Source of the DNA: Nocardia jinanensis
Lineage (GTDB): Bacteria > Actinomycetota > Actinomycetes > Mycobacteriales > Mycobacteriaceae
Assembly: GCF_014645735.1 (NCBI RefSeq)
Contig: NZ_BMMH01000012.1
Coordinates: forward strand, 62,001 to 126,000
Direction: 5' to 3'
DNA: 64,000 nt
The notes under the pieces: generated by a model
The model's input: only the letters and a program-made list of their open reading frames with translations
Database searches by the model: none
What the model was told of the DNA's origin: nothing
Made by a program: the position numbers and the translations under genes
In this document: positions 24,766-27,282 of the stretch, in pieces
Position numbering within the stretch: position 1 is the stretch's first letter
Layout: every line of letters starts with the position of its first letter

Positions 24766-25188
24766 TCAGTCGGCGGTGTTCGCGGCGGGATCCGGTGCGG
24801 AGAACCCGGTGATCCGCTCGGGTGTCACGCGGACGATGAACCGCAGGAGATCCGCGGGTTCGGCGGGCGGGTCCTGACCGAGGTACTTCCGGGAAAGCCG
24901 CAGCGGCAGCGCCTTGTCCGGGTCCTCGATCAGTTCGGCGGTGCCCTGGATATCCACGGAATGATAGGGGTTCGCGGAATCGAATACGGTGAGCCCGATC
25001 CGTGGGTCCCGGGCCAGGTTCCGGACCTTGCGGCGGTTGGTCGTCGAGGAGAACACGATCGAGTCGCCCTCCCGGTCCATCCAGACCACCGAGGTCTGCG
25101 GCCGGCCGTCCGGTTCGACAGTCGCCACCGTGGCGAAGTTCTTCCCGTCCAGCAGGCGGCGCGCTTCGTCGTTCAATTCGATCGTCAT
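24766..25188 (-). CDS. PPOX-class, probably F420-dependent oxidoreductase
   Basis: A 140-residue split-barrel protein of the TIGR03618 type. MTIELNDEARRLLDGKNFAT is the usual beginning; VATVEPDGRPQTSVVWMDRE, SSTTNRRKVRNLARDPRIGL and the C-terminal ERITGF match the group. It probably uses F420 on an unidentified substrate. ATG 25188 follows AAAGGA at good spacing. Directly downstream of a MFS exporter gene read in the same direction, 70 bases away. Confidence 0.88.
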   Translation of the reverse strand: MTIELNDEARRLLDGKNFATVATVEPDGRPQTSVVWMDREGDSIVFSSTTNRRKVRNLARDPRIGLTVFDSANPYHSVDIQGTAELIEDPDKALPLRLSRKYLGQDPPAEPADLLRFIVRVTPERITGFSAPDPAANTAD

Positions 25189-25258: not shown

Positions 25259-26695
25259 TCAGGCGGCCGGAGCGGCCGCGATATGCGCGCGAGCCGGGAG
25301 AGCGGCCGCGGCCACAGGTCGCAGCACTGTGGCCGCCACACCCAGCGCGGCCACCAGCAGTCCGGCCGCGATGGCGAAGGCCACCCGGTAACCGCCGGTC
25401 AGCGCGTCGGCAACGGGCGCCCCGGAGTTCAGCAGAGCACCGCTGCGGGACGCGGCGAGAGTGGTCAGGACGGCGACGCCGAGCGCCATCCCGATCTGCT
25501 GGGTGGTGTTGAACAACCCGGAGACCAGTCCGGCATCGTCGGCCGCGGCGCCGGACATACCCAGTGCGGTGAGCGCGGGAAGTACCAGCCCGAATCCGGC
25601 GAGCAGCGCCGTCACCGGCAGCAGGTCCGGCAGGTAGGACGCGTCGACCGGCAACCAGGCGAGCCGGACCATGGCGGCCAGCAGCAACAACAACCCCGCG
25701 ATCAACACGGCGCGTTCGCCGAATCGGATGATGAGCCGAGCCGAGCCGAACAGCGAAACCCCGCCGATCGCGACGGCCGCGGGCAGCATGGCCAGGCCGG
25801 TTTCCAGCGCCCCGTATCCGAGCACACGCTGCAGATAGAGCGCGAGCAGGACCTGGAACGCGAACATCGCCGAAACGGTCAGCATCTGCACCAGATTGGC
25901 CCCGGAGACATTGCGCGAACGGAAGATCCGCAGGGGGAGCAGCGGATCACCGATCCGGGACTGCCGAAGCACGAACACCGCCAGCAGCGCGAGGGATACG
26001 GCTCCGAAACCGAGGGTATGGCCCGAGGTCCAACCGTGGTTCTCGATCTCGACCACCGTGTAGATACCGAGCATCAGTCCGGCGGTGACCAGCGCGGCGC
26101 CGGGGAGATCGGGTCGGCGGGCGGTACCGGTCGCGTGATCCGCCGGCAGGACCGCGATCGCCAGAGCCACCGTGGCCAGGCCGATCGGCACATTGATCAG
26201 GAAGATCCAGTGCCAGCCGAAAGCGTCGGTCAACACCCCGCCCAGCACCTGCCCGATCGCGGCACCGGCGGCACCGGTGAAACCGAAGACCCCGATCGCG
26301 GCCTTGCGCTGCCGGTTCTCGGTGAACAGTGTCACCAGGATGCCGAGCGCGACAGCGGAGGCGAAGGCGCTACCCACGCCCTGGAGAAAGCGGGCGGCGA
26401 TCAGCTTCGCGGGAGTGGTGGCCGCACCCGCCATCAGCGACGCGGCCGTGAACACCGTGTTCCCGATGAGGAAGATCGTCTTGCGGCCGACGAGATCACC
26501 GAGGCGCCCGCCCAGCAGCAGCAGTCCGCCGAAGGCGATCAGGTAGGCGTTGACCGTCCAGCTCAACCCCGCGGCGGTGAACCCCAGGTCACGCTGGATC
26601 TCCGGAAGTGCCACGGTCACGATGCTGCCGTCGAGGACGGTCATCAGCGTGGCGGCCGACAGAACGGCCAGGGCGAGACGTGCGGGAAAGCTCAT
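25259..26695 (-). CDS. MFS drug exporter, DHA2 type
   Basis: A 478-residue exporter with about 14 hydrophobic segments. LDGSIVTVALPEIQRDL at segment 1 is the classical DHA2 motif, GRLGDLVGRKTIFL is motif A, and GFTGAAGAAIGQVLGGVLTD corresponds to motif C. It is the second gene after a MarR regulator (26769) and carries an operator-like dyad in its leader. The leader also folds the ribosome-binding site into a perfect hairpin (separate entry), which suggests expression control at translation. Substrate unknown. Confidence 0.92.
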   Translation of the reverse strand: MSFPARLALAVLSAATLMTVLDGSIVTVALPEIQRDLGFTAAGLSWTVNAYLIAFGGLLLLGGRLGDLVGRKTIFLIGNTVFTAASLMAGAATTPAKLIAARFLQGVGSAFASAVALGILVTLFTENRQRKAAIGVFGFTGAAGAAIGQVLGGVLTDAFGWHWIFLINVPIGLATVALAIAVLPADHATGTARRPDLPGAALVTAGLMLGIYTVVEIENHGWTSGHTLGFGAVSLALLAVFVLRQSRIGDPLLPLRIFRSRNVSGANLVQMLTVSAMFAFQVLLALYLQRVLGYGALETGLAMLPAAVAIGGVSLFGSARLIIRFGERAVLIAGLLLLLAAMVRLAWLPVDASYLPDLLPVTALLAGFGLVLPALTALGMSGAAADDAGLVSGLFNTTQQIGMALGVAVLTTLAASRSGALLNSGAPVADALTGGYRVAFAIAAGLLVAALGVAATVLRPVAAAALPARAHIAAAPAA

Positions 26696-26700
26696 GGTGT

Positions 26701-26726
26701 TCTCCTGTCCGGAACCCGACAGGAGA
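26701..26726 (-). promoter_or_regulatory. Leader hairpin that buries the ribosome-binding site of the MFS gene
   Basis: Perfect 9-bp inverted repeat TCTCCTGTC / GACAGGAGA with an 8-base loop. In the leftward mRNA the 3' arm is GACAGGAGA, five bases before the ATG at 26695, so the AGGAGA ribosome-binding site is paired with UCUCCU. Confidence 0.65.
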
Positions 26727-26732
26727 GACTGT

Positions 26733-26762
26733 AATAGATAGTTTCGTTGCAGACAATCTATT
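26733..26762. promoter_or_regulatory. Probable MarR operator before the MFS gene
   Basis: Dyad AATAGAT (26733-26739) and ATCTATT (26756-26762). The central sequence AGTTTCGTTGCAGA is nearly repeated in front of marR itself at 27259-27282, which argues for one regulator binding both. Confidence 0.6.
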
Positions 26763-26768
26763 GTAGAG

Positions 26769-27257
26769 CTATTGGCGCGCGCGGCGCGCGGCCGACGGCG
26801 CCTCCACCGTCTCGGCGAGATGCCCCTCGGTGAGGTTCCGCAGCGCACGTACCAGGGCCGCCCGCTCGGTCGCCGGTAGCGATTCGAGTGCCGCGCTGTG
26901 CACGCCGTCGACGATCCGCTGACTCCGTTCGGCGACCTCGCTCCCCGCCTCGGTGACGGCGATGATCCGGGCACGGCGGTCGGCAGTGGAGGGTCGACGC
27001 TCGGCCAGCCCGGCCTTCTCCAGCGCGTCGACAGTGACCACCATCGTGGTCTTGTCCATATCGCCGATTGCCGCGAGTTGGGCCTGGGTGCGCTCCCCCT
27101 CCAGCGCGTGGACGAGTACGCAGTGCATACGGGCGGTCAGCCCGATCTCCGACAGCGCCGCCGCCATCCGGGTGCGCAGGGCGTGGCTGGTGCGGTCGAG
27201 CAGGAACGACAGATCCGGTTCGGCGCGGACAGGAGCCATGGCAGTCATGAATCCCAT
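26769..27257 (-). CDS. MarR-family transcriptional regulator
   Basis: A 162-residue winged-helix regulator. The HTH lies in RTQAQLAAIGDMDKTTMVVT and the wing in LAERRPSTADRRARIIAVTE (residues about 75-115). It precedes the MFS exporter gene in the same orientation, and both leaders carry the same AGTTYCGTTGCAGA-centred dyad, so it likely represses both until a drug-like ligand binds. The start may be ATG 27257 or the nearby ATG 27248 (MTAMAPV). Confidence 0.9.
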   Translation of the reverse strand: MGFMTAMAPVRAEPDLSFLLDRTSHALRTRMAAALSEIGLTARMHCVLVHALEGERTQAQLAAIGDMDKTTMVVTVDALEKAGLAERRPSTADRRARIIAVTEAGSEVAERSQRIVDGVHSAALESLPATERAALVRALRNLTEGHLAETVEAPSAARRARQ

Positions 27258-27258
27258 G

Positions 27259-27282
27259 ATAGTTCCGTTGCAGATCTTCTAT
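27259..27282. promoter_or_regulatory. Probable MarR operator before marR
   Basis: ATAG ... CTAT ends enclosing TTCCGTTGCAGATCTT, matching the dyad in front of the MFS gene. It begins two bases upstream of the ATG at 27257, so a bound repressor would cover the start region. Confidence 0.55.

Follow-up and report, generated by a model that had tools for sequence, protein, structure and literature searches.

A hairpin over the Shine–Dalgarno sequence of a drug exporter gene in Nocardia jinanensis as a probable seal against translation of read-through RNA from an upstream marR gene

In the stretch of 64,000 nucleotides from Nocardia jinanensis analysed here (contig NZ_BMMH01000012.1, positions 62,001–126,000; the window), a gene of the marR type and a gene coding for a drug exporter of the major facilitator superfamily (MFS) follow each other on the same strand with marR upstream and a gap of 73 bp. 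The gap contains the promoter-like sequences of the exporter and a hairpin which encloses the whole Shine–Dalgarno (SD) sequence (Table 1). We suggest that the hairpin is probably a translation seal depending on the start site of the transcript, which acts only on RNA reading through from marR, and that it most likely insulates the exporter from leaky transcription of marR.

Judged by its sequence, the exporter protein is an MFS exporter with DHA2/EmrB as closest models; it reaches 229 bits against the NCBIfam model TIGR00711 (DHA2/EmrB), whose cut-off is 230.2. The marR product has a MarR domain, as it scores 42.4 bits against PF12802 (gathering score 27), and its closest named relatives are found in Nocardia sienata, N. 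fusca, N. rhamnosiphila, N. grenadensis, and N. testacea (89–90% identity).

Table 1. Features of the marR–exporter region (window coordinates)
Feature	Position	Strand	Remark
Drug exporter gene, MFS, DHA2/EmrB-like, 478 aa	25259..26695	(-)	Pfam MFS_1 7e-48
Exporter ATG	26693..26695	(-)	SD spacing conserved among orthologues
SD sequence AGGAGA	26701..26706	(-)	inside 3′ arm
3′ arm GACAGGAGA	26701..26709	(-)	contains whole exporter SD; conserved
Hairpin loop, 8 nt	26710..26717	(-)	
5′ arm TCTCCTGTC	26718..26726	(-)	overlaps predicted transcription start
Predicted start of the exporter's own transcript, 7th or 8th nt after -10	26720..26721	(-)	deduced from the place of the -10, leaderless orthologues, and the geometry at marR
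-10 TACAGT of exporter promoter	26728..26733	(-)	operator-anchored hexamer; ends 1 nt ahead of 5′ arm
-35 TTGTCT	26751..26756	(-)	17 nt from -10
MarR-type dyad AATAGAT...ATCTATT over promoter	26733..26762	(-)	by eye; conserved in orthologues
marR regulator gene	26769..27248	(-)	Pfam MarR_2 8e-11
marR -10 TATCAT	27256..27261	(-)	7 nt ahead of marR ATG

The arms TCTCCTGTC and GACAGGAGA form nine Watson–Crick pairs out of nine. As a score, the best stem joining the SD sequence to the region downstream of the -10 hexamer was taken and compared with control windows from other parts of the locus and with shuffled sequences. The locus of the window reaches 23; its controls reach at most 14 and none of 100 shuffles scores as high. 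The first-pass annotation, made on the letters of this DNA, had described a hairpin sealing the entire AGGAGA site just downstream of a MarR-type dyad, and this description proved correct; it was silent on marR lying upstream on the same strand and on the 5′ arm beginning one nucleotide after the -10 hexamer of the exporter. By itself the 29-nt hairpin folds with -16.8 kcal/mol compared to -8.2 kcal/mol in shuffles (z -3.9), and one shuffle in 200 does equally well. Three longer segments of the leader are unremarkable in fold energy (z -0.2 to -1.1), and we therefore do not take the energy as proof.

The position of the promoter is central to our interpretation. When the hexamer is anchored on the -35 sequence and the dyad, with no -10 being required, TAnnnT is found in 188 of 189 loci, its middle being variable. 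The same motif precedes marR and ends six or seven nucleotides before the ATG in 204 of 207 located starts (five or seven in one of them); an SD-like motif precedes only three of these 207 starts. The available excerpt of a study on Mycobacterium tuberculosis (PMC3898074) reports that three quarters of the start sites have TANNNT and that 26% of the genes with a primary start site give leaderless mRNAs. The exporter itself was classed as leaderless in 11 of 165 tandem loci of a first set and in 6 of 85 of a second set, that is in 17 distinct loci, and in these tandem orthologues the start codon follows six or seven nucleotides after the -10 hexamer. In three of them (L320, L321, and L330) translation starts with a GTG exactly at a conserved G, the eighth nucleotide after the hexamer, which corresponds to position 26720 of the window. 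Thus, judged by its geometry the promoter would start its transcripts within the 5′ strand of the hairpin, and the start site of the exporter seems to lie inside the 5′ arm at about 26720. With a start at the seventh or eighth nucleotide most of the 5′ arm would be upstream of the exporter's own mRNA. As an observation made by eye, the letters of the stem persist in the leaderless loci L074, L095, L123, L320, L321, and L330; the start codon is found in the loop or adjacent to the arm and the former SD letters are now coding.

The stem was compared among orthologous leaders at fixed offsets from the -10 hexamer and from GGAG, that is, ignoring structure. The promoter could be located in 96 of 107 loci and 85 leaders were compared. 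Positions 3–9 are paired in 78 to 85 of these 85 leaders, and the loop ranges from 6 to 30 nucleotides (one anchor and two shifts by one nucleotide were corrected). Altogether 723 of 884 cells are paired compared to 707.9 with shuffled rows (standard deviation 4.0, maximum 724); this excess is modest because both arms are conserved. An alignment of 50 of the 85 leaders, from which near-duplicates and leaders with long loops were excluded by eye, has 91.4% of its cells paired, and a shift of the register by one to three columns lowers pairing to 43–58%. It contains 22 cells altered on both sides compared to 10.3 in shuffles and has a covariation score of 0.230 compared to 0.193 (0 of 500 shuffles reach either value); 5 of 13 pairs have two-sided changes compared to 2.8 in shuffles (reached by 16 of 500). 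Compensatory changes, for which the first-pass annotation had proposed to look, are thus present in orthologous leaders. Unaided, RNAalifold keeps positions 5–10 only. Parsimony on the marR tree of the 85 leaders assigns 30 C/T changes in the 5′ arm to positions opposite G (positions 3, 5, and 6) and three to positions opposite A (positions 4, 7, and 9); the weight of this argument is reduced, since the pattern recurs in part in leaderless orthologues. In L085 and L301 the stem looks largely new by eye; that of L301 does not exceed its controls.

A model of the element built from the 50 leaders was searched in 296 genomes of the class. It matched in 18 genomes, 21 times at 19 places, and 18 of these places are beside marR and the exporter. 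In the genome of N. jinanensis the present place is found with an E value of 3e-9, its opposite strand with 0.34, and one further match has an E value of 6.4. These comparisons of sequences show that the hairpin is conserved in many actinobacteria with arms that co-vary, and that it likely constitutes a post-transcriptional layer of control.

An inverted repeat situated at the presumed transcription start could also serve at the level of the DNA, as a promoter element or as the site of a second regulator, with the pairing of the RNA being incidental, and parts of the 5′ arm do persist in leaderless orthologues. However, we regard this explanation as highly improbable, given that the spacing of the arms varies from 6 to 30 nucleotides, that G–U pairs are common in the aligned leaders, and that position 7 changes as a pair (C–G in L100, A–T in L139).

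The hairpin was further compared between the different arrangements of the two genes. The 210 loci collected comprise 166 tandem, 26 divergent, and 3 convergent loci (1 usable), 14 loci without an exporter in reach, and 1 without marR. Of the 90 genomes matched in one search, 88 were used as loci (30 supplied by the search itself and 58 fetched); G555 was used as L139 and G741 was left out. The first set tabulated contains 165 of the 166 tandem loci (L141 was omitted for a too low promoter score), with L158 among them having no assigned SD, and 25 of the 26 divergent loci (L166 was omitted as it has no promoter). For the second collection 90 of at least 171 matching genomes were taken (30 as loci and 60 fetched, from the lower end of the matches listed). 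A further genome search matched 35 of 298 genomes; 6 matches without a locus were excluded. Five loci repeated others and were kept out of the second set; of 112 loci, 27 were discarded (24 with no exporter found, 2 with no promoter, and L305, whose SD was unassigned although its leader shows a stem). Since species overlap between both collections, each distinct marR DNA was counted once (255 of 277 rows, including L139). Two marR genes had been considered in L066; this was rejected, there being one match only.

In the first set the 153 tandem loci with an SD have a median stem score of 23; 146 exceed every positional control and for 128 at most 5 of 100 shuffles score as high. For the 25 divergent loci the median is 14, with 5 and 7 loci passing the same comparisons. 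The second set yielded 79 tandem SD loci (median 22; 71 above every positional control; 57 reached by no more than 5 of 100 shuffles) and no divergent locus, and thus tests conservation only. Among the distinct loci a score of at least 18 is found in 186 of 210 tandem SD loci and in 2 of 26 divergent loci; 196 and 6, respectively, exceed every positional control (Fisher p 4e-15, uncorrected for relatedness), and for 170 and 8 at most 5 of 100 shuffles are as high. The difference is also seen within Streptomyces alone, where an earlier scoring gave medians of 27 for 75 tandem and 14 for 25 divergent loci; the genus of some of these genomes was taken from named loci with identical sequence.

This association with gene order would likewise be explained if the hairpin were a terminator or attenuator which ends or pauses transcription from marR instead of blocking ribosomes. 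There is, however, no U-tract after the stem in the window and no terminator-like site was scored between marR and the exporter, so that the hairpin does not qualify as an intrinsic terminator. Moreover, the SD is part of the 3′ arm in the compared leaders, although a terminator would have no use for it there, and we give this explanation little credence. That no terminator-like site separates the tandem genes rather counts for a seal on read-through RNA.

The predicted folding of the two transcripts points in the same direction. In the 153 tandem loci opening the SD costs a median of 3.5 kcal/mol in the exporter's own mRNA (starting at the eighth nucleotide) compared to 11.3 kcal/mol in read-through RNA (folded from 90 nt upstream), the difference being at least 3 kcal/mol in 140 of the 153 loci. 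For the window the predicted costs are 3.9 and 12.4 kcal/mol. The 25 divergent loci have medians of 5.0 and 6.4 kcal/mol, and the difference is at least 3 kcal/mol in seven. In tandem loci the SD core is unpaired with a mean probability of 0.28 in the own mRNA and 0.03 in read-through RNA; in divergent loci the two values are 0.28 and 0.22. In 163 tandem loci the -10 hexamer ends 32 nt or more downstream of the marR stop codon, so a ribosome terminating there should not open the stem.

In the pyrC and pyrD leaders of Escherichia coli and Salmonella the start nucleotide decides whether a hairpin over the SD is formed. A similar switching would be conceivable here: own transcripts starting two to three nucleotides earlier (at C5 or C6) would keep a stem of 5–6 bp which transcripts starting at G8 lack, and nucleotide pools or drug stress would tune translation. 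The six positions which RNAalifold retains do straddle the start, the divergent loci of one group retain exactly these six pairs, and a start at position 5 closes the SD of the window (probability unpaired 0.02). But such a start would be four to five nucleotides after the -10 hexamer, whereas the leaderless start codons are at six or seven, and over the 153 tandem loci it leaves the SD unclosed (mean probability unpaired 0.34 compared to 0.28 from position 8). We see only a slim chance for start switching. In addition, pyrC and pyrD choose within one promoter by nucleotide supply, whereas the contrast proposed here is between two promoters.

The first-pass annotation had concluded that the exporter is under a second layer of control. 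In this reading the hairpin would be complete in the ordinary exporter mRNA and would be opened in trans, for example by a small RNA, by a ribosome stalled on a short leader, or by a drug slowing translation. A post-transcriptional layer is indeed likely from the conserved, co-varying hairpin; the sealing of the ordinary mRNA and its opening by such signals do not follow from it. The stem is strong in RNA containing the complete hairpin, and the promoter on which our objection is based is not called by a consensus scan (see below). However, the -10 hexamer ends one nucleotide before the 5′ arm, and marR as well as the leaderless orthologues have their start codons six or seven nucleotides past such a hexamer. 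A start inside the hairpin, which would leave the 5′ arm untranscribed, had itself been named as the finding that would speak against this mechanism; promoter geometry predicts just such a start. No leader peptide fits between marR and the exporter: positions 26696–26768 contain neither ATG nor GTG, and the single TTG at 26756 has no SD and opens a frame continuing beyond 26641, which argues against a stalled ribosome. No Rfam match at E values up to 1 was obtained between positions 25000 and 28000. We found no support for a small RNA as trigger; small RNAs themselves were not searched for. An effect of the drug on translation is likewise unsupported: the seal is largely lost where marR is divergent although drug control should still apply there, which fits better to protection from read-through than to drug sensing. 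Altogether we consider opening of the ordinary mRNA in trans to be unlikely.

Several results weigh against a seal that acts on read-through RNA only. The sigma-70 consensus scan calls no promoter-like site at the exporter leader, and the exporter promoter thus rests on conservation and spacing. The outer pairs extending into the -10 hexamer are often broken (positions -2 and 1 are paired in 35 and 37 of the 85 leaders at fixed offset). The pattern of the 5′ arm (pyrimidines, T at position 4) is partly present in leaderless orthologues, and preferences of the promoter may share in the conservation of this arm. The window's own mRNA is not fully open when folded (probability unpaired 0.11–0.19), coding sequence being predicted to pair with the SD. 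Of the 210 tandem loci 14 have a seal that scores no higher than the controls, and six of the 26 divergent loci do exceed theirs, foremost L139 with a score of 27 and 12 of 13 pairs; it was this locus that first challenged a purely marR-based read-through model, and more divergent loci were tested as a consequence. A divergent group of Streptomyces retains CCAGTC/GACTGG. On the best tree gene order switched about six times, with only three contrasts on supported branches; in these the seal goes along with gene order in about 1.8, runs against it in 0, and shows no difference in 1.2, which is too few for significance. Such tests of independent pairs were made on two trees and had too few contrasts, so that phylogenetic power is low. 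The stems kept in divergent loci may stem from a recent inversion, from other upstream transcription, or from a role in the exporter's own mRNA. Together with a possible promoter role of the 5′ arm, these loci leave real room for the other explanations. Apart from this, in the divergent Streptomyces loci L186, L202, L227, and L218 the SD may, by eye, be covered by bulged stems of new sequence, which ungapped scoring would miss.

We suggest that a seal on read-through RNA would work as follows. The upstream marR is probably self-regulated and leaderless and would be transcribed at a low level. Its mRNA, when reading through, would carry both arms, the exporter SD would be closed, and little exporter would be made. 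When the regulator releases the DNA upon binding of a putative ligand, the exporter's own promoter would fire, giving an mRNA that begins inside the 5′ arm and thus lacks most of the seal; its SD would be accessible about as well as in orthologues without a seal. In this way exporter synthesis would be tied to its own promoter and shielded from leakage of marR. Leaderless orthologues would reach the same end by another route, as a start codon devoid of an SD should be used poorly inside a long mRNA.

Comparable arrangements are known from mobile elements and phages. In Tn10/IS10 read-through RNA from outside folds over the start of the transposase gene, and the element's own transcript does not; there the ends of a mobile element are concerned, here a promoter internal to an operon. 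Closest is the lysozyme gene e of phage T4: as described in the excerpt available of PMC3014915, longer, early transcripts from upstream seal the SD in a helix (as also for soc, 49, and I-TevI), and transcripts from the late promoters immediately upstream, which lack the 5′ part of the structure, are translated well. The folding energies given above for read-through RNA of the tandem loci and of the window predict the same closure of the SD by a helix. The likeness lies in the predicted logic of action, and assignment of the present hairpin to this type is based on its sequence features. The T4 genes it covers are late phage genes with sigma switching, whereas here a chromosomal MarR–exporter pair of Actinomycetota is concerned, with leaderless orthologues as an alternative. 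In a relative, Streptomyces coelicolor, the pump SCO4121 and its MarR regulator offer a parallel insofar as the partial account at hand describes a MarR-regulated MFS multidrug pump. Among the matches listed in our literature search, none describes an exporter sealed in this way in its title or the opening of its abstract.

A broader proposal, which we make tentatively and which may well turn out otherwise, is that tandem MarR–exporter pairs of Actinomycetota use two interchangeable insulators, either a leaderless start codon or a hairpin-sealed SD whose 5′ arm is omitted by the own promoter. The exporter would then be translated only from its own induced promoter, gene order would decide on retention of the seal, and the origin of an mRNA would be read from its first nucleotides. 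If true, a scheme best known from a phage lysis gene would operate on chromosomal drug-efflux operons of Nocardia, Streptomyces, Nonomuraea, Microbispora, Actinomadura, and relatives. This would account for the position of a leaky, self-repressing regulator immediately ahead of a costly exporter that it nevertheless does not switch on, and also for the coexistence of leaderless and SD-led orthologues. It would further caution that an SD hairpin deduced from a genome sequence may be missing from the main mRNA.

Some minor features of the region complete the picture. The marR gene probably starts at the second ATG of its open frame (27248), giving a leaderless mRNA and a protein beginning with MTAMAPV, and not at the first ATG (27257). 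By eye, a dyad related to that of the exporter is present at marR's own promoter. Upstream of marR a flavin amine oxidase gene (PF01593, 27661–29055) is found on the opposite (+) strand. About 70 bp after the exporter and on the same strand (-) follows a gene for a PNPOx-like protein (pyridoxamine 5′-phosphate oxidase fold; 24766–25188, start assigned by eye), which may share the exporter transcript. The one place found by the element model away from a marR–exporter pair, at about 1480–1545 of L143, is an orphan copy of operator and promoter which in that other genome precedes a further PNPOx-like gene; this may hint at a common regulon.
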